From Methanosarcina barkeri MS (lineage in GTDB: Archaea; Halobacteriota; Methanosarcinia; Methanosarcinales; Methanosarcinaceae), in contig NZ_CP009528.1 of NCBI RefSeq assembly GCF_000970025.1, positions 682,001 through 746,000 on the forward strand: DNA of 64,000 nt. The letters are read 5' to 3'. Numbering within the stretch: position 1 is the stretch's first letter; every line of letters begins with the position of its first letter. Made by a program: the position numbers and the translations under genes. A model generated the notes under the pieces. The model saw only the letters and a list, made by a program, of their open reading frames with translations. It did no database searches and had not been told where the DNA came from. Shown in pieces: positions 2,463 to 24,195 of the stretch.

Positions 2463-3725
2463 TTATAACTCTTTACCGGATCCTTTTTGAATTTTTATTT
2501 TTGGTTTCATATTGAAAACTCCGGTATAGATAATTGCACTATCATTAGGAATTACTTTTAAAACCTCTATATCGTGAGCCATAAGCAAATATTCTTCAAA
2601 AGCATCTTTTCCGTATCCCTTATTTGCCACACCAACAGAGAATGAATAGTCTCCTGCCGAGAGTGGAATAAAGAATTCCCAGATTAGTTCTGCAATCTGC
2701 CCTTTTTTTAGAGTAAAAGTTTTAATGCCACTACAATATGTATTTGTTTCAAATACTGATACACCCAGATTGTTTCTAACGTGAAGGCCAAAGTGAGGAT
2801 CAGATAATTCTTTTAAGGCCTTGACTTGATATATAACTTTAATTACCTGTTCACTCTCAGTGTATAATATTTCCTCGTTTTTTGAGTTCAGAATTTTAAA
2901 GGAAATAAGTTCAACTTCCCCTGTTGAAGCATTCGGATTTTTTCGACCTGTACAATCTTTCGTATCAGCTATGTCATATACTTTTACTTCTGTATCTCCC
3001 ATGTGTGCTTTTTGTAAAATCATTCCATGATAATAATCAATTATATCTTTTGGGTCGCCGGAACTAAGCATATGACCGTGATCTAATAACATTGCTGAAT
3101 CACATACAATTTTTACAGCATTCATGTCGTGAGATACAAAAATAATGGATCCGCCACTGTTTTTAAATTCCAGAATCTTTCTCATGCATTTTTGCTGAAA
3201 ATATGCGTCTCCGACAGATAGCGCTTCATCTACCAAAAAACACTTTGGTTCTGCATGCATTGCTATTGAGAATGCAAGCCTCATAAGCATACCCGATGAG
3301 TATGTTTTGATCGGGTCATAAATAAAATCCCCAAGCTCTGTGAAATCAATAATCTCGTCTTTTTTCTTTTCAATTTCGCTTTTATCCATTCCTAGAAATG
3401 TCCCATTCATGAATATATTTTCAATGCCTGTAAGTTCTTGATCAAAACCTGTTCCCAGTTCAAGTAAACCGGTGATTTTTCCGTCTACTTCTATCAAGCC
3501 CTCGTCAGGAAGCATGACACCAGAAAGTACCTTTAATAGAGTAGATTTGCCAGCTCCATTCTGTCCTACTACCCCGAGGGTTTGTCCTTCCTTCACTTCA
3601 AAAGAAATATTGTCTAATGCAGTGATCTCTCTATGGTATTTTTTCTTTAAGATTTTCTCTTTTAATCTGTCAGTGGGTGTATGATACAACTTGAACTTTT
3701 TTGAAACACCTGATACTTTGATCAT
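2463..3725 (-). CDS. Polysaccharide ABC exporter ATP-binding protein (Wzt-type with carbohydrate-binding tail)
   Basis: The 420-residue protein has an ABC ATPase domain (about 1-230) with Walker A GQNGAGKS (54-61), signature YSSGMLMRLA and Walker B CFLVDEALSVGD, then the switch histidine in FVSHD. The C-terminal 170 residues resemble the beta-sandwich Wzt_C domain, which in bacterial Wzt reads the capped end of the polysaccharide before export. It lies 25 bases downstream of the ABC-2 permease gene, which supplies the membrane half. The pair should flip a lipid-linked glycan across the membrane. The tail implies that chains carry a recognisable terminal modification, consistent with the methyltransferase gene immediately downstream. 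Confidence 0.93.
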   Translation of the reverse strand: MIKVSGVSKKFKLYHTPTDRLKEKILKKKYHREITALDNISFEVKEGQTLGVVGQNGAGKSTLLKVLSGVMLPDEGLIEVDGKITGLLELGTGFDQELTGIENIFMNGTFLGMDKSEIEKKKDEIIDFTELGDFIYDPIKTYSSGMLMRLAFSIAMHAEPKCFLVDEALSVGDAYFQQKCMRKILEFKNSGGSIIFVSHDMNAVKIVCDSAMLLDHGHMLSSGDPKDIIDYYHGMILQKAHMGDTEVKVYDIADTKDCTGRKNPNASTGEVELISFKILNSKNEEILYTESEQVIKVIYQVKALKELSDPHFGLHVRNNLGVSVFETNTYCSGIKTFTLKKGQIAELIWEFFIPLSAGDYSFSVGVANKGYGKDAFEEYLLMAHDIEVLKVIPNDSAIIYTGVFNMKPKIKIQKGSGKEL

Positions 3726-16064: not shown

Positions 16065-16775
16065 ATGACTCTTCCAGAAGTCTGTCCACTTGATGAAAGT
16101 CAGACATGTAAAGGGCGGGAGTGCCACCTCTTCTGCCTTGAGTGGAGATCAAGAGAACCCATCTGCCTTATAGGTTACAGTATAACAAGTAGAATTAAAT
16201 CCGGAAAAGCTGGACGTAACAGGGATACCTATGCTGAAGATACTTTCCGGAAACTAGGAAGGCAGCCGCTTTCTAAAAGAAAAGATGTCTCTGAAATAGG
16301 AGACTGGACCCCTTCAAGGCTCACAAATAAATCTTCGGAACAATCTGTTGAAAGAAACGAAGAAAGATTTTCAAAGAACCGGCACTTCCAGGAAACAGAT
16401 GTAAAGAAGCCTGACCAGAAGCCTGAGGGAAACCATGATGAAAGGCAAAGATATGCTCCCAGCGATGCTGAGAAAGCTTCTATAAGGCTGGAATCCGGAT
16501 TGAAAATTGAGCCGGTTGAACAGAGCCCGGTTATACATGCAAAAATTGAACCAAAAGTCCAGGAAAAGCCAAAGACCCCGGAAAAAGTCATTTCAAGAGA
16601 TAAGCACACGACGATCTTTGCACCTTTTAATAATGATAAAAAAGATGACTCCTGCCTGCCAGGAAGAGAGGAAAAAGTAATAAAGTCCGCTGAGAATAAA
16701 GAAAAGCGTAAAAAGCTTGATAAAGCAATGGAAATAGACCTTCCTGATACTTATGATGAGGATTTCTGGAGTTAA
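16065..16775 (+). CDS. Hypothetical protein with N-terminal cysteine cluster and disordered charged tail
   Basis: The 236-residue protein has five cysteines in its first 34 residues (C7, C15, C20, C24, C34; local sequence CKGRECHLFCLEW), a possible metal or Fe-S site. Residues from about 55 onward are Lys/Glu/Ser/Pro-rich and low in complexity, predicted disordered, ending in an acidic DLPDTYDEDFWS. No ribosome site precedes the ATG, so it could be leaderless or start elsewhere. It lies 61 bases after prs on the same strand. Function unknown; probably lineage-specific. Confidence 0.65.
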   Translation: MTLPEVCPLDESQTCKGRECHLFCLEWRSREPICLIGYSITSRIKSGKAGRNRDTYAEDTFRKLGRQPLSKRKDVSEIGDWTPSRLTNKSSEQSVERNEERFSKNRHFQETDVKKPDQKPEGNHDERQRYAPSDAEKASIRLESGLKIEPVEQSPVIHAKIEPKVQEKPKTPEKVISRDKHTTIFAPFNNDKKDDSCLPGREEKVIKSAENKEKRKKLDKAMEIDLPDTYDEDFWS

Positions 16776-17104
16776 CCACCTTCAGTCCGAAAATGGCTGT
16801 TTTTCGCTCAATCCTTTTTAAAAAGGCTTGGCAGTTAACAGCCTTCAGCTCGAAGAAATAGCTCAGAAATACAGATAGAAGTTCCGGAAAGGGTTTCTTA
16901 CCCTTGAAGAAAAAATTATATTATCTTTACTCCGGCGTTCCTGAAGTGAACTTTCTTGACTCCTTTATAACCGATTGTTCATGGTTTTAAAGCGTTGGGT
17001 TTTAAGACGTTGATATGATTATAATCCATGAATATCGAAGGAGTTATGGAAAATCAACTGTACTTCTGAGAGAGAATTTTGATATCATAAGATTCTCATT
17101 TTTC

Positions 17105-17200
17105 ATGCTGTTTGACTATGCTGCTTAACTTATGCTGCTTAACTTATGCTGTTTGACTATGCTGCTTAACTTATGCTACTTAACTTATACTGCTTAACTT
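17105..17200. repeat. Seven tandem 13/14-bp repeats upstream of the TPD nuclease gene
   Basis: Units are ATGCTGCTTAACTT (14 bp) and a 13-bp variant ATGCTGTTTGACT, arranged in seven consecutive copies. They end 50 bases before the start codon of the TPD-domain gene, in a 474-base gap (16776-17249) that otherwise shows no gene. Confidence 0.9.
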
Positions 17201-17249
17201 TTATTTTGCGTGCTCGGGAAGGATACAAAAAAGGATATGATGATTCAGG

Positions 17250-18038
17250 ATGGACCGCCAGACATACCAGACAATCTACAGCTCACTGCATGACTTTAAA
17301 GATGTTTTTCGCCTTTCGGAGGAATATTCCAAACCCGTAGGTGTGCTTGCAACAATTCTCAATCAGAAAGTCGTAAAAAAGACTCGGTTCAAACACAGAA
17401 AAGTTTATTCAAGGGAAAACGAACTTTTTTTAAAATGGAAACAGGGACGCACTATTCTTGATCTTGCGGAATACACAGGCTTTCCTCCTACCCTTATGGC
17501 ATCCCTTATTATGAAGAATTGTCAAATTTCCAAGAAAAGTATAAACTGGCTTTTCAAAAATGTGGACTTAATCGAAAACCGCCGTCTTCAAAAGGAAGTC
17601 AAAAAAGCTCTTGATGTCGATCACTTCTTTTCGCCTCATGCCCATGAGATGCAGTGTAAGAAGGGCGAGATGGGAGAAGCACTTATCCAGAAATGGCTTG
17701 ATGATAGGGAAATTCCATATTGTACCGAAGCAGACATTCGGGCCAAGGGAGAAGGCAAGACTCCTGATTTTGTCCTGGAAAATCCTGTATGCATAGACAA
17801 TCTTATGGTCAACTGGATTGAAAGCAAAGCGCTTTTTGGAGACTACTTCGAACACGAGCACTATTCAAAGAAACAGTTTCGGGAATATGCAGAGATTTTC
17901 GGAGAAGGCATGGTTGTCTACTGGTACGGGTATCTCGAAGATCTCCCTTCCGAGGGCTATCTTGTAAAGAACTATAGCTTTTTTGGAGAATATAAAGAGG
18001 AAGTTGATGAGCTATTTAATTATCTGGTATACTGGTGA
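17250..18038 (+). CDS. TPD-domain PD-(D/E)XK nuclease-like protein (CDIN1/C15orf41 family)
   Basis: The 262-residue protein has an N-terminal helix-turn-helix-like part with LDLAEYTGFPPTLMASLIM. The C-terminal domain contains the diagnostic TPDF motif (171-174). Together with E143 (KGEMGEALIQ) and E191-x-K193 (WIESKA) it forms a plausible PD-(D/E)XK active site. The human relative CDIN1 (C15orf41), mutated in congenital dyserythropoietic anaemia type I, shares the TPD domain, and archaeal members resemble Holliday-junction resolvase-type nucleases. It lies convergent with mre11-rad50, which fits a DNA repair or recombination role, though this is inference. Start chosen as ATG at 17250; GGAT elements lie upstream. 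Confidence 0.8.
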   Translation: MDRQTYQTIYSSLHDFKDVFRLSEEYSKPVGVLATILNQKVVKKTRFKHRKVYSRENELFLKWKQGRTILDLAEYTGFPPTLMASLIMKNCQISKKSINWLFKNVDLIENRRLQKEVKKALDVDHFFSPHAHEMQCKKGEMGEALIQKWLDDREIPYCTEADIRAKGEGKTPDFVLENPVCIDNLMVNWIESKALFGDYFEHEHYSKKQFREYAEIFGEGMVVYWYGYLEDLPSEGYLVKNYSFFGEYKEEVDELFNYLVYW

Positions 18039-18220
18039 GTCCTGTTTGAATACGTTTGAGTGCTGATAGAATACATTTGAACCTTGTATGAAATACTTTT
18101 GATACCAGTGCTTCGATTCCAAAATTAATTCCTCATTTCCTAGAAAATACGGGATTTACAGGTCTATTAAAAAGTCAAGTTTTATGAACTTACTTCAAAA
18201 TCGAGTACATCGCAGTACTA

Positions 18221-18570
18221 GTTTGCTGACAGAATGTATTTGAACCTTATCTGGAATACTTTTGACCCTGGTCTGCTGACAGAATGCGTTTGAACCTTAT
18301 CTGGAATACTTTTGACCCTGGTCTGCTGACAGAATGCGTTTGAACCTTATCTGGAATACTTTTGACCCTGGTCTGCTGACAGAATGCGTTTGAACCTTAT
18401 CTGGAATACTTTTGACCCTGGTCTGCTGACAGAATGCGTTTGAACCTTATCTGGAATACTTTTGACCCTGGTCTGCTGACAGAATGCGTTTGAACCTTAT
18501 CTGGAATACTTTTGACCCTGGTCTGCTGACAGAATGCGTTTGAACCTTATCTGGAATACTTTTGACCCTG
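18221..18570. repeat. Seven tandem copies of a 50-bp unit
   Basis: The array has an exact 50-bp period. Six units (18271-18570) appear identical; the first (18221-18270) differs at a few bases. Each unit contains CTGACAGAATGCGTTTGAAC followed by CTTATCTGGAATACTTTTGA. Diverged relatives occur just upstream (about 18037-18110), so the array grew from older decayed copies. There are no spacers, so it is a minisatellite and not CRISPR. It lies between the convergent 3' ends of the TPD nuclease and rad50 genes; no gene was seen in 18039-18646. Confidence 0.97.
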
Positions 18571-18646
18571 GTCTGGTATATTTATGAATCCTGTCTGACA
18601 TACTTGCTAACTGCGCGACAGGCCTGCTGAAAAGGAAATAGTCAAC

Positions 18647-21600
18647 TTAAAGTTTTACAATAGACGACATATTGGTAATAGGGTCTTTTTCTACCTGGAA
18701 GACATGGTCTGCCGAATCTATAAGTGATTCATCATGGGAGACCACAATAATCTGGCCTACGCCTATGCCGCGCATCATGTCTATGAGTTTCAAAAGCTGG
18801 TTTATATGCCCGCGGTCCAGGAAAACTGTAGGCTCGTCAAGGATCATGGGGGGAAGCCCGTCTGCCCTATCTCCGCCAAAACCCAGAGCAAGAAGCCTGT
18901 AGATCGCACAGCGCAGGACAAGGTTAAAGATTGCACGTTCTCCTCCGCTAAGGAGTTTTGGTTCAAGGGGGGTGCCGTCTTTTCTATAAACCGTGAGGTT
19001 ATATTCCGGGTCGAGTTCGATATGTGAATAAGCATTATTTGTGTACATGAAGTTGAACATTTCATTCAAAAGGATCGAAAGAGCCCCAATGTTTTTTGTC
19101 CGCATATCCGCCCGAACGTGCATATACATGCTCTCAAGCTCTTCGGCGTTGCTATATACGGCTTCGAGGTACTGCTTCCTGTTCTCAAGGGCTTTTAGTT
19201 CTTCTTTCAGCTCATTACGGCGTTTTAAACTATTTTCAACCATCCCCACTTCTTTTAAGAGCGCATCTTTGGTAGACGTTATTTGCCGGGTTTTTTCAGT
19301 AAGGTTTGCCTGATATTCTTCAAGCTGGGTACGCTTTGACTGAAGGTCTTCGAACCTGCTTCCTTGTAGCTTTCCTTCAAGCTGTTTTACCCGCTCGTTT
19401 CTTTCAAGGATTTCCCGGTCAAAAAAGCCGACTTTTTCGGCAAGGTTCCTGATTGAAGCCTCAAGCTCGGAGATTTTGTGCTTTACGTTATCCATCTGTA
19501 TCAGGTTTGCTCCGAGTTTTTTTGTCTTCAAGAGACGCTTTGAACTTTCTTCATGGGTTTCTTTTGCCATGGCTTCTTTTTTCCTCAGGGCTTCAAGCTC
19601 AATTTCCAGGGTTTTGAGTTTTTCCTTTTCCTGAGTTTCTCGTTCGGCAAGCCCTTTTATTTTCTCATTGAGCTCTCCAAGTCTCTGCCCGTAATTTTCG
19701 ATCAGTGCTAGGGAAGTCCTGATTTTCCCGTTCAGGCTCTCTATTTCCGAGGTATTTTCAGCAAGCTTTTTCTCAAAGGCTTTTGCCTCTCGAAGTACTC
19801 TTTCACTCTCACCATGAGCTTTTTGAGCTGCCGCCTCCCATCCCTGCAGGGCTTTAATATCGGGAAGAAGCTTGCCCATTTTAGCCTCAAGTTCTTCCTT
19901 TTGTTTATTAAGCCCTTCAAGTTTAAGGGAATCTTCCTCGGTTCGGGTTTTGTGGATAGATATCCTTTCTTGCAGGTCTTTTGCTTTATTTTTGAGTCTT
20001 TCGGTTTCCAGGTCGTAATCCGAAATTCGCTTCTCCAGCTTTTTGGCATCCTTGAGCCGATTAAGTTTTTTCTCGACTTCGGCTTGCTGGAGCTTTATAT
20101 CAAGAAGTTCTGCTGCAAGTTTTTCTCTCTTCTGTTCGGATTCCCCGGTTGTGCATGCAATTTCAGAGCCTTTAAGATCCTGCCCGCATGTAGGGCATTT
20201 TCCTTCGGCAAGTAGCTGCTGGTTTTTACGGATAACTTTATCAAGCTCCCTGACAGTAGCTTCAAGCTCTTTTTCCCGCCCATGCAGCCTGTTTTTGTTT
20301 TCCAGCAGAAGTTCGCTGAGGTACTCCAGGTCTTCGAGCTGCTCTCCGGTAAAGCCAAGTCCTTTTAACCCTGCAGAAGCTTCGGATTTTTGCTCCTTGA
20401 CTTCCAGAACTGCCTTATCATTTTCCCTGAGATCCTCTTCAAGGATTTCTATCTCGGTTTTACTTTTCCTAACTGCGACCCTGGAGTTTTGAAGTTCCTT
20501 ATCAAGCGTGAGGAGATTTATGTCTCCTGTTTCTTTTTCTTTGAAAGCAAGTGCAAGTTTTGTTGAGGCTTCGTTTTTCCGTTCGCGCAGAAGGCTTTCT
20601 TTTTCTTCCAGCTCATTTATAAACAAAGGAAGCTCATAAGAGTCCGTGAAGCCTGTAGTTTCTTTTGCAGCTTCTTTTAGCTTTTTACTCTCATCTTCGA
20701 TTCTCAGTATATTTTTTCTGTTTTCTTCAATTGCCCCGTTTGTAGTCCCAATATCTGCCCTGCACTGCCTTAAAATCTGTTCGGTCTCAGCCTTTTCGTT
20801 TTCAAGGTCATGTAGAGCCTGAGTGTGAACTTCTTCCTCTCTGAGGAGAAGAGCAAGCTCTTTTGAGATCGCATTTACCTTTTCCCTAGCAAGAAACTCC
20901 TCTTTTTCCTGCTGCATGCTCAGAGCCTCAATCTCAAGGTTCCCAAACCCACATTCTTCTCGAATAAGCTTATTCTCTTCTCCCAGTCCGAGCAGTGCCT
21001 GCCTTTGTTCATGGGATTCTCTGGCGAAGTTTTCTTTTTCCCGGATACAGCCTGCCTTGTCTTCCTGAGACTTAGCCAGGACCTGTTTCAGAGTCTGGAT
21101 TTCCTGGAGATGTTCCCTGTGCTCTGTGATCATAAGGTCGAGTTTTTCTTTCTGGGCGGCTGCAGCCTCTTTATTCTCATTACATTTTTTTAAGATAGTA
21201 TCGTTTTCCTTTATCTTCTGCTTGAGCCCATTCAAAACAGCATGCGGTTCTGTACTTTCAATCCCCTCAATTTCGGCTTTTACGCTCGAAAGGCTTTTAC
21301 TCGTGTCCCTTTGAAGCCTTCTTACAGCAGTTTTTGCGCTTCCTGCTCTTTCCCTGTATTCTTCGAGCTTTCCAAGCTGCAACAAGCCGTCGATCATTCG
21401 CTGCCTGTCTTTTGGTTTCGCGTTAATGAGTACATCAATTTCGCCCTGCCTGATGTAAGCGCAGTTTCTGTACGCTTCTTCATCCATATTTAGAAGAGAA
21501 CAGACCTCTTCGTAAGTCCGTGTAGCCTGATCGACAATACTTTCCCCATTGGCATAGAGCACACATTTCGAATTCGAAGCGCTCTCACTTTTAGAAGAAT

Positions 21601-21871
21601 ACCTGAAAGCCTGTTCTATAAGATAATCCTGTCCTAAATGCTCAAAACCCAGGTTTATTTTCGCATTTTCAGCTCCTTTGAAGATTACATCTGCAAGCAC
21701 GAAGTCCTTTGAAAGAATTTTGCTCCCGAAAAGCCCCATAAAACATGCTTCAAGCAGGCTTGACTTCCCGCTTCCGTTCACCCCGGAAATGACTGTAACT
21801 CCGTCTTCAAATGTAAAATCCAGTTTTTTATAACTCCGGATGTTTTCAATATGCAAGTTTTTGAGCTTCAC
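18647..21871 (-). CDS. rad50: DNA double-strand break repair ATPase Rad50
   Basis: Rad50 pairs with Mre11 to tether and process DNA ends. The 1074-residue protein has Walker A GVNGSGKS (30-37), a long coiled coil split at mid-length by the zinc hook CPTCG (C559, C562), and a C-terminal ATPase half with LSGGERAIFN and ILDEPTVFLDRGH, then VVSHDESLIDSADHV. The zinc hook position near the centre gives two coil arms of similar length, as expected. The start codon overlaps the mre11 stop by four bases, so the two are translationally coupled. The cysteine of the DQDL-type hook region is intact. Confidence 0.97.
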   Translation of the reverse strand: MKLKNLHIENIRSYKKLDFTFEDGVTVISGVNGSGKSSLLEACFMGLFGSKILSKDFVLADVIFKGAENAKINLGFEHLGQDYLIEQAFRYSSKSESASNSKCVLYANGESIVDQATRTYEEVCSLLNMDEEAYRNCAYIRQGEIDVLINAKPKDRQRMIDGLLQLGKLEEYRERAGSAKTAVRRLQRDTSKSLSSVKAEIEGIESTEPHAVLNGLKQKIKENDTILKKCNENKEAAAAQKEKLDLMITEHREHLQEIQTLKQVLAKSQEDKAGCIREKENFARESHEQRQALLGLGEENKLIREECGFGNLEIEALSMQQEKEEFLAREKVNAISKELALLLREEEVHTQALHDLENEKAETEQILRQCRADIGTTNGAIEENRKNILRIEDESKKLKEAAKETTGFTDSYELPLFINELEEKESLLRERKNEASTKLALAFKEKETGDINLLTLDKELQNSRVAVRKSKTEIEILEEDLRENDKAVLEVKEQKSEASAGLKGLGFTGEQLEDLEYLSELLLENKNRLHGREKELEATVRELDKVIRKNQQLLAEGKCPTCGQDLKGSEIACTTGESEQKREKLAAELLDIKLQQAEVEKKLNRLKDAKKLEKRISDYDLETERLKNKAKDLQERISIHKTRTEEDSLKLEGLNKQKEELEAKMGKLLPDIKALQGWEAAAQKAHGESERVLREAKAFEKKLAENTSEIESLNGKIRTSLALIENYGQRLGELNEKIKGLAERETQEKEKLKTLEIELEALRKKEAMAKETHEESSKRLLKTKKLGANLIQMDNVKHKISELEASIRNLAEKVGFFDREILERNERVKQLEGKLQGSRFEDLQSKRTQLEEYQANLTEKTRQITSTKDALLKEVGMVENSLKRRNELKEELKALENRKQYLEAVYSNAEELESMYMHVRADMRTKNIGALSILLNEMFNFMYTNNAYSHIELDPEYNLTVYRKDGTPLEPKLLSGGERAIFNLVLRCAIYRLLALGFGGDRADGLPPMILDEPTVFLDRGHINQLLKLIDMMRGIGVGQIIVVSHDESLIDSADHVFQVEKDPITNMSSIVKL

Positions 21872-24195
21872 AGGTAATCACCAAGGTTATACTGTCGAGG
21901 TACAGCAGTCTTTTTCCTTCCTTTTTTTGCCCCTGCTTTCCCCGTTTTTTCGTTTAGCTCCGTAGCCCTTGTAGGTTCCTCTTCAGGCAGCTTTTCAGTT
22001 TTGTCTGTTTTTTCCTTTACAGGTTTGCCTTTTACTCCGGGCTCAGATTGCTTTCTACTCTTCTTCTCAGGTTTACTTTCAGGTTCAGTAGGTTTACTTT
22101 CAGGTTTACTTTCGTCTTGACTTTCAGGTTTAACTTCAGGTTTACTTTTAAGTTCGCTTTCAGTTTTACTTTCAGTTTTACTTTCAGGTTTTACTTCAGG
22201 TTTACTTTTGGCTCGGCTTTTAGGTTTAATTTCAGATTTACTTTCGGCTTGAATTTCAGGTTTAACTTCAGGTTCGTTATCTTTATCTTTTCCGAACTCG
22301 GTTTCAATTCCTGGAGTTTTTACTGGAGTCCTGGAAGTTTCCTGCTGGATATTCGATTCAGAAGGCGCTACAGGCTTATTGTTCAACTCTGTTGATCTCG
22401 AATCAGGCAGCTTCAAAAGCCCCGAATCAGACGAACACTGCGAGTTTGATGCTGGTGCCAATGGTGCCAATTCGGAAATATCCTGATTCATGGCTGAAAT
22501 CTCAATACTCTTTGAGGGTTCAGTGTCCTTTGAGGTCTCAGTACTCTTTGAGGTCTCAGTACTCTTTGAGGTCTCAGTACTTTTTTTAGTACCTTTTTTT
22601 TCAGTATTCTTGATTCGGTCTGAAGTCCGCAGAACTCCTGAAAGTTCAGTAATTTCAAGCTTGCCGGAAACTATACCCTCCTGCATGTTTTTCCCGGCGA
22701 GTCCAGCCTCCCCTACAGCATCAGGGTTTATTTCTTCAAATTCCAGAAGTCCGGGAGTGGTGGCAGAACTTGCAGCATTGGCAGTGTAGGCAGAACCATC
22801 GGGACTAGCCGAATTGGCGGGAATCTCTATCCTGAATTCAGGGTTTTTGAAGTCCATAGCTTTAGCTTCAATAAGTTTCGAAAGACGGTCCTCGGTTTCT
22901 TCATCTACCCTTGACTTTGAGACATTAGGGCTCCGGACAATTTCATCAATAATCAACCCGCCGTCGTTTAAACTCATTTTCCGGATCTCGCTTGCAACGG
23001 CATGGTCAGGATCAGAAAAGGTTACCTTTAAGCCTTCCTCCGGGAAGGACTCCTTTGCTCTCCGGTCTACAAAGTTTGACACGAGAGCCCCTTTATTAAG
23101 CAGGTATTCCTCAAGTTCGCTCTGTGACAGGACTGCTCCCGAATCCCCTGAAATTTCCAGAAATACCACGGATTCAGGGATATCTTCCAGATATTCGTCG
23201 ACTTTAGAAAATATCTGTTCATAGGGTTTGTCCTCTCCTTTCAACTCTACTCGAATGGAAAGGAATTTACGGGTTGGAATCGTGCGTTTGCTAATTTCAA
23301 GTCCTTTTTCGGAAAGCGTAATAATATTGTAGGAACGGGCTTCCTTTTCGGACAGACTGTTTCGTTCCGTACTGCCAGGGTAAGTAATCCAGGTCTCACC
23401 GGTTTTATTTTTGATTATTGAGTGTTCATGGTAGTCGCCAAGAAGAATTGCGTCAACCTTGAAAGGAAGGTTTTCAAGCACCTCATCGCAGTCCCATTCC
23501 GCATATGGAAAAGGATTCATAATCTGGTGCATTACAAGCAGTTTCCAGCCGTTTACCACAGGGCAGGAAGGGATCGAAGAGATGGAAGGATTAGAAGGGC
23601 TGGATAAGGTAGAAGAGGCAGAAGAAGTAGAAGAGATAGAAGGAGTAGATGGGTTGGGGGGAGTTGAAGAAGTTGAAGACGTGGGCGAAATGGACGAAGT
23701 GCAAGGAGTTGGAGAAGTGGAATCATTGGAAGAAGTAGAAGAGTCGGAAACGGCAGGAGAGTCCGGCGTCTCAAATCCTGAATAGTCGAATATAGGAATT
23801 TTTGATTTCGGGACACTGTCTATCCCGTAGATGGCTGCATTACCTACCATAAGCGGTTTTTTTCCGAGCCTTGCCGCAAGTCCCATCTCCTCAAAAAGGT
23901 CGAGCCACTGGGTATTCTGCTTGCTTTCATGGTTCCCGACAATTCCTAAAAACGGTATGTCAGCCGCCTTCAGTCTGGACAGGAGATTTATTGTATCAAG
24001 GAGGTCTTCAAGGGTCGGGTTCCTTGAATCAAAAAGGTCTCCCGCATGCACTACGGCATCTACCTGCATCTCAACCGCATCATTTACAACAAGTTCGAAA
24101 GCTGCAAAAAAATCGTTTCTCCGGACCTCGCTGTGATATTGCCTGTATCCCAGATGCGTGTCTGCAGTGTGGAGTATCCTAATTTCCCTGGCCAT
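21868..24195 (-). CDS. mre11: DNA double-strand break repair nuclease Mre11, with expanded low-complexity regions
   Basis: The 775-residue protein has all Mre11 phosphodiesterase motifs: ADTHLGYRQYH (D12, H14), HAGDLFD (D53), GNHES (N88, H89), VMHQ (H223) and LLGDYHEHSI (H256, H258). Between about 143 and 213, inside the catalytic domain, lies a 70-residue Ser/Thr/Pro-rich insertion. Residues from about 500 to 760 form a second low-complexity tail of STETSK and KPESK-type repeats, ending with GRKKTAVPRQYNLGDYL. Such segments are absent from compact archaeal Mre11 proteins. The matching DNA is repetitive (22040-22400, 22500-22580, 23590-23750), so slippage likely made them. It is the first gene of mre11-rad50. 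Confidence 0.95.
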   Translation of the reverse strand: MAREIRILHTADTHLGYRQYHSEVRRNDFFAAFELVVNDAVEMQVDAVVHAGDLFDSRNPTLEDLLDTINLLSRLKAADIPFLGIVGNHESKQNTQWLDLFEEMGLAARLGKKPLMVGNAAIYGIDSVPKSKIPIFDYSGFETPDSPAVSDSSTSSNDSTSPTPCTSSISPTSSTSSTPPNPSTPSISSTSSASSTLSSPSNPSISSIPSCPVVNGWKLLVMHQIMNPFPYAEWDCDEVLENLPFKVDAILLGDYHEHSIIKNKTGETWITYPGSTERNSLSEKEARSYNIITLSEKGLEISKRTIPTRKFLSIRVELKGEDKPYEQIFSKVDEYLEDIPESVVFLEISGDSGAVLSQSELEEYLLNKGALVSNFVDRRAKESFPEEGLKVTFSDPDHAVASEIRKMSLNDGGLIIDEIVRSPNVSKSRVDEETEDRLSKLIEAKAMDFKNPEFRIEIPANSASPDGSAYTANAASSATTPGLLEFEEINPDAVGEAGLAGKNMQEGIVSGKLEITELSGVLRTSDRIKNTEKKGTKKSTETSKSTETSKSTETSKDTEPSKSIEISAMNQDISELAPLAPASNSQCSSDSGLLKLPDSRSTELNNKPVAPSESNIQQETSRTPVKTPGIETEFGKDKDNEPEVKPEIQAESKSEIKPKSRAKSKPEVKPESKTESKTESELKSKPEVKPESQDESKPESKPTEPESKPEKKSRKQSEPGVKGKPVKEKTDKTEKLPEEEPTRATELNEKTGKAGAKKGRKKTAVPRQYNLGDYL

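Follow-up and report, generated by a model that had tools for sequence, protein, structure and literature searches.

The question raised by this locus is whether the TPD-family protein encoded beside mre11-rad50 in Methanosarcina barkeri MS, a relative of human CDIN1 (C15ORF41), is an active nuclease and on what it would act. CDIN1 is essential in mammals and is mutated in a hereditary anaemia (dyserythropoietic anaemia type I), and we know of no substrate for it. The window, that is, the whole analysed stretch of 64,000 nucleotides, contains the following features at this locus:

17250..18038, plus strand: gene of the TPD-family (CDIN1-type) protein, 262 aa, PF14811, ATG start
17577..17969, plus strand: TPD / PD-(D/E)XK-like nuclease domain, aa 110-240 by Pfam
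18224-18575, no strand: seven 50-bp tandem sequence repeats (99% alike) separating the TPD gene from rad50
18647..21871, minus strand: rad50, 1074 aa, convergent with the TPD gene, SMC_N and AAA_15 by Pfam
21868..24195, minus strand: mre11, 775 aa, overlapping rad50, Metallophos by Pfam

A diverged copy of the 50-bp repeat is also seen at 18061-18102.

The assignment to the TPD (CDIN1-type) family, made in the original prediction, is borne out by the Pfam scan, in which PF14811 (TPD) covers residues 110-240 with 166 bits, the cut-off being 27 (E 5e-49), and the TPD sequence motif required by the family is present as T171-P172-D173. No second Pfam family is detected on the protein at E 0.01, there is no NCBIfam match, and sequence comparison gives no credible relative of solved structure. 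The window gene is a new archaeal member of a family that is already known, and the presence of TPD genes in archaea has been reported before (PMC7092493), the available excerpts of that paper placing the archaeal orthologues in Euryarchaeota and in no other archaeal phylum; no publication naming PF14811 was found. When the profile is used, 115 of the 392 genomes of the phylum have a TPD protein above the cut-off, being 60 of the 61 genomes of family f1, all four of f2 and, for the remaining 51, genomes of f8, which the names of the matching contigs identify as Methanosarcinaceae, ANME-2 and Archaeoglobaceae, respectively. The TPD tree agrees with these lineages. TPD is found in none of the genomes of f3 (three), f4 (one) and f5 (14) of the same class, and among 14 control genomes it is matched in M. 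acetivorans only. The window belongs to a genome of the Methanosarcina clade, its TPD protein sharing 95% identity with that of Methanosarcina sp. UBA5. In 14 of 23 orthologue pairs tried, a finite dN/dS of 0.03-0.09 is obtained (two pairs are saturated, seven were skipped for unequal length, and dS exceeds 1 in several of the 14), which shows that the gene is maintained by purifying selection. Together, this ratio and the 115 genomes above the cut-off rule out a chance match.

For the comparison of sites and neighbourhoods, contigs were scanned with the single pattern WIESKA[LMV]F, and 80 of the 108 loci were taken; a further 11 loci from Methanosarcinaceae, ANME and others stand outside all counts. 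L130, where no TPD ORF was detected, the fragmentary L141 and L206, and 11 sequences identical to others were dropped, which leaves a neighbourhood set of 137 locus rows plus the window, 138 in all; flanking DNA was examined for 71 of the 115 TPD genomes. Two genomes show interrupted frames, one being Methanohalophilus profundi (L141), where TPD is split into two ORFs, and the other G201, where an in-frame TAG lies inside the TPD match; either may reflect decay or sequencing error.

The AlphaFold2 model, calculated from an alignment of 20 archaeal proteins, has a mean pLDDT of 93.6 and a pTM of 0.87. The core order in this model is helix (E143), strand (D173), strand (E191, K193) and helix (Q209, Y213): E143 is placed on the first core helix, D173 immediately ahead of its strand, E191 and K193 at the end of the strand after it, and the following helix carries Q209 and Y213. 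Foldseek returns nothing below E 0.001 with this model. In the VIA structural comparison (625 chains) the top match is BsaWI (Z 7.5, rmsd 3.0 Å, 112 residues), tied with AF1548 (1y88; Z 7.4, rmsd 3.5 Å, 106 residues), and further matches are the BspD6I small subunit, Can2/Card1-type nucleases, the NucS-like 2vld, EcoRII, FokI, Bax1 and Vsr; the RNA polymerase subunit Rpb5 is also among the matches listed. All Z values are below 8 and may reflect merely a common arrangement, yet one superfamily dominates the list: the matches listed over residues 128-250 are mostly PD-(D/E)XK proteins, restriction enzymes among them, and the Rpb5 domain has a similar fold. Residues 128-250 are thus predicted to adopt a PD-(D/E)XK-like core fold, as had been proposed. 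AF1548, a protein of unknown function, is only 14% identical to TPD, and the aligned range starts at residue 138, so that the helix-turn-helix (HTH) part lies outside it. The N-terminus, for which an HTH-like region had been anticipated, is a double HTH (aa 1-97) in two predicted models. When it is modelled separately, homeodomain, TrpR and serine-recombinase HTHs match both halves with Z 4-6:

17250..17393, plus strand: helix-turn-helix 1, aa 1-48, like DUX4 homeodomains (Z 6.0, rmsd 1.8 Å, 48 residues)
17394..17540, plus strand: helix-turn-helix 2, aa 49-97, like the Tn3/gamma-delta resolvase HTH (Z 5.6, rmsd 1.9 Å, 43 residues)

The residues of the putative active site are the same in all sequences that were compared, 138 non-identical archaeal TPD proteins from Methanosarcinaceae, ANME-2 and Archaeoglobaceae:

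17676..17678, plus strand: E143 codon, motif-I-like acid on the first core helix, 138/138
17760..17771, plus strand: TPDF motif, with the D173 codon at 17766-17768, D173 in 138/138
17820..17828, plus strand: E191-S-K193 (ExK), both residues in 138/138
17874..17888, plus strand: Q209xxxY213, fitting the QxxxY of RecB-like nucleases, 138/138

The selection of the named loci by the pattern WIESKA[LMV]F biases residues 189-196 among those loci; the same site residues are present in loci that were picked by the Pfam profile instead. TPDF, with D173 inside it, as well as E143, E191 and K193 are all found where the original prediction had read them, and the PD-(D/E)XK site that it considered plausible has its catalytic D and (D/E)xK (D173, E191 and K193) complete in 138 of 138 proteins. 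Q209xxxY213 is an addition to that set of residues. The acid, D, ExK and QxxxY occur in the order that is common to RecB-like nucleases, whose QxxxY motif is defined in PMC2602864 (seen as excerpts), and E143 would be motif I of the RecB-like set. Unlike those nucleases, TPD has no helicase domain and carries the double HTH at its N-terminus instead; RecB, Cas4 and AddB are absent from the Pfam scan at E 0.01 and from the 50 VIA matches listed, and no publication combining CDIN1 and QxxxY was found. The invariance of the site suggests that it is intact and that catalysis is probably retained, and it is the main ground for expecting catalysis.

The main ground for caution is provided by the human protein. 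The likeness to CDIN1 rests on the PF14811 match, the TPD motif and the published domain plan of two N-terminal HTHs followed by PD-(D/E)XK (excerpts of PMC7261414), with which the archaeal model agrees. In the available parts of PMC7261414 and PMC13370696 no enzyme activity of CDIN1 is described, as the original prediction had also held, and, according to the former, CDIN1 with or without a Codanin-1 fragment is inactive on duplex, flap, fork, Holliday-junction and RNA substrates. CDIN1 binds the C-terminus of the scaffold Codanin-1, which the accessible text of PMC7092493 reports from animals and some protists and not from archaea; the archaeal TPD protein therefore has no known scaffold partner.

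We consider it an even chance that TPD is an active DNA nuclease with an accessory role in repair and with RecB-like motifs, best read as not specifically a partner of Mre11-Rad50 nor a resolvase; the cutting, DNA as the substrate and the repair role are each what we infer. Catalysis would be metal-dependent and of the PD-(D/E)XK type, using E143, D173, E191-x-K193 and Q209xxxY213, and the tandem HTH N-terminus probably sets the protein on DNA. In Methanosarcina, TPD would most likely play an accessory part in repair by trimming or nicking DNA that is damaged or broken. In most other Methanosarcinaceae its gene stands immediately behind that of an HhH-GPD base-excision glycosylase. This DNA-nuclease reading is drawn from the PF14811 match, the predicted fold, the invariant site, the low dN/dS and the HTH matches, and also from repair and replication neighbours that occur in separate lineages, namely HhH-GPD, rad50-mre11, RecJ-Pcc1, nth and MCM. 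Against it stand the many neighbours from translation and tRNA modification (NMD3 C-domain, aRF1, ArcS, Pcc1 and a YchF-related GTPase), the want of a universal partner, the low structural scores (nothing in Foldseek below E 0.001, Z below 8) and the missing HhH-GPD neighbour in the Methanosarcina clade.

As far as the literature found goes, the archaeal TPD neighbourhoods are new. They differ by lineage, and directly upstream of the window gene are:

16065..16775, plus strand: upstream neighbour, 236 aa, without Pfam match, syntenic in Methanosarcinaceae
16776..17249, plus strand: spacer at the place where other genera have the HhH-GPD glycosylase gene, no remnant of it being found by tblastn

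About seven 14-bp tandem repeats lie at 17105-17200, just ahead of the TPD start, and further away a DDE transposase gene (PF01609; 11151-12260) separates the TrkA-DHH gene from nnr, two genes that are adjacent in relatives. An HhH-GPD gene is found directly upstream and on the same strand in 42 of the 42 rows of its clade, which comprises Methanolobus, Methanococcoides, Methanohalophilus, Methanomethylovorans and an ANME-3-type group. The HhH-GPD frame ends anywhere from 25 nt ahead of the earliest possible TPD start to 88 nt past it. The Pfam assignment (E 3e-15) was made in L060 only, the others being identified by BLAST to L060 or to a second member; the best NCBIfam match of L060, 3-methyladenine glycosylase PRK13913, is below the cut-off. 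By sequence the glycosylase is MagIII-like, with GxETA where EndoIII-type proteins show GRKxA. The lysine of GRKxA is the lyase lysine of EndoIII-type proteins, so the HhH-GPD glycosylase seems to lack it. Beyond the HhH-GPD gene, where the contig permits, prs, moaC and nnr usually follow, and the ANME-3-type loci differ. In the Methanosarcina clade the gene is missing before TPD, and proteins from five loci give no tblastn match at E 1 to a remnant in 21 spacers, including that of the window; the M. barkeri genome has an HhH-GPD gene at another site, 47% identical.

In the other lineages, aRF1 is upstream in 10 of 10 ANME-2 rows. Of the 50 Archaeoglobaceae rows, 31 have an NMD3 C-domain protein in this place, and two more have it at greater distance. 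This protein is a second copy, full-length NMD3 being present as well in nine of nine Archaeoglobaceae tested; as seen at L034:9103-9372 and similar places, it is a C-terminal protein of about 90 aa that mostly overlaps or lies close to the TPD start. RecJ-Pcc1 is upstream in eight Archaeoglobaceae rows (families checked on L177 only), and in one genus of that family RecJ, Pcc1 and TPD overlap as a chain (L177, RecJ from 2228, TPD start near 3705). TgtA-ArcS is upstream in three rows, nth lies two genes upstream in two, four rows combine a convergent MCM with a divergent PHP gene, and a YchF-related GTPase is near TPD in five. Five rows of the Methanimicrococcus clade and L143 have none of HhH-GPD, aRF1, NMD3 C-domain, RecJ-Pcc1, TgtA-ArcS, MCM or rad50. 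Clearly, TPD has no universal partner, and both DNA-repair and translation genes recur.

The translation genes raise the possibility that TPD is an RNA nuclease of translation or RNA quality control, in which the role of CDIN1 on a CNOT1-like Codanin-1 would have its archaeal root. This is conceivable, and we hold it to be on the unlikely side. NMD3 C-domain, aRF1, TgtA-ArcS, Pcc1 and YchF-related GTPase genes do precede or adjoin TPD in different lineages, Codanin-1 is described as resembling CNOT1 (excerpts of PMC7092493 and PMC11911400), and Pet127, a PD-(D/E)XK protein, is described as an exoribonuclease (part of PMC9014873). The HhH-GPD, Nth, RecJ, Rad50-Mre11 and MCM neighbours, however, indicate DNA, the predicted N-terminus resembles DNA-binding domains, and no RNA cleavage by human CDIN1 is recorded in the accessible text of PMC7261414. 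Moreover, replication and translation genes are frequently adjacent in archaea, as the available part of PMC2643942 describes, so that the translation linkage of TPD is weak evidence.

The original prediction took the placement of the gene, convergent with mre11-rad50, as a sign of a role in recombination, which in its specific form would make TPD a dedicated partner of Mre11-Rad50 that resects or processes double-strand breaks. The convergent placement is confirmed in the window, and the QxxxY motif (excerpts of PMC2602864) is one of RecB-like nucleases. Rad50 was scored only in rows with at least 700 bases downstream (129 of 138 rows, nine being unscored) and within a distance limit of 3 kb, and a convergent rad50(-mre11) adjoins TPD in 30 of these 129 rows, all in two clades: the Methanosarcina clade, where 25 of its 30 rows have it (two are unscored and three lack it), and the ANME-3-type clade, where five of six do (one is unscored; the contig name of L105 includes ANME3). 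It is absent in the other 99, among them Methanolobus, Methanococcoides, Methanohalophilus, ANME-2 and Archaeoglobaceae, so the linkage, when checked for conservation, is not a trait of the family; the adjacency is a local arrangement, confined to Methanosarcina and a single related clade. Since the genes are convergent, they share no promoter or transcript, and the seven 50-bp repeats stand between them. In the form in which it was made, the argument from placement is not supported by these observations, and the original interpretation as a whole is borne out in part. NurA is the usual archaeal resection nuclease, and it is still matched, weakly (E 1e-5), in the genome of the window. A dedicated Mre11-Rad50 partnership is quite unlikely. 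NurA matches occur in 15 of 20 genomes tested, with none in G139, G002, G012, G191 and G363, and the separate idea that TPD substitutes for NurA was rejected as unclear.

It is also highly unlikely that the nuclease fold of TPD is degenerate and only binds nucleic acid, without cutting it: the repeated assay failures with human CDIN1 (as excerpted from PMC7261414 and PMC13370696) would fit this, and the complete catalytic set in all 138 archaeal proteins speaks against it.

The comparison with archaeal Holliday-junction resolvases concerns Hjc (PF01870), which belongs to the same broad superfamily and has the E/D/ExK set in common with TPD, a protein that differs in its extra HTH domains and QxxxY and in its lack of profile similarity. 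Hjc is not matched in the TPD protein by the Pfam scan at E 0.01, and alignment of TPD with 10 Hjc proteins by hhalign gives a probability of 0.3%, so the likeness looked for is not found at the profile level; the 50 VIA matches listed include other PD-(D/E)XK nucleases and no Hjc, a list that does not exclude an Hjc-like fold. Canonical Hjc has two weak matches in the 83 genomes of the class of the window and none in the 61 Methanosarcinaceae genomes sampled, 60 of which have TPD. A separate Hjc-like family of about 160-165 aa, to which Pfam assigns no family, was found in 12 of the 15 genomes examined, that of the window included, and not in the two Archaeoglobaceae tested. It aligns with the Hjc profile (probability 46%, E 2e-4), and its profile alignment with TPD gives 0.1%. 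This Hjc-like PD-(D/E)XK protein is seen, for example, at L263:1501-1980 and, in the M. barkeri genome, at G000:C2:3849603-3850052, mostly in Hjc-poor lineages; judged from these alignments, the resolvase candidate that suggests itself where canonical Hjc is missing is this family rather than TPD. That TPD is a resolvase replacing Hjc in Methanosarcinaceae, in line with the Hjc pattern there and with the likening of human C15ORF41 to Hjc in excerpts of PMC7261414, is therefore rejected as extremely improbable, since the Hjc-like family fills the gap and aligns with Hjc, TPD aligns with neither, Archaeoglobaceae keep both Hjc and TPD, and the 18 genomes of f3, f4 and f5 lack TPD and show no more than one weak Hjc match between them.

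For the family, the survey of neighbourhoods ranks the partners, with the HhH-GPD glycosylase first and the translation factors second, and it cautions against relying on the mre11-rad50 adjacency alone. The archaeal protein, with no known scaffold and an unvarying site, offers a simpler system in which to uncover the chemistry of CDIN1, and Methanosarcina has working genetics. It is a doubtful but specific proposal that TPD proteins are repair nucleases acting downstream of the HhH-GPD glycosylase, opening or resecting the strand at the abasic or alkylated sites that it leaves, and that human CDIN1 is descended from them; if this were true, a step in the processing of DNA damage would be affected in dyserythropoietic anaemia type I.
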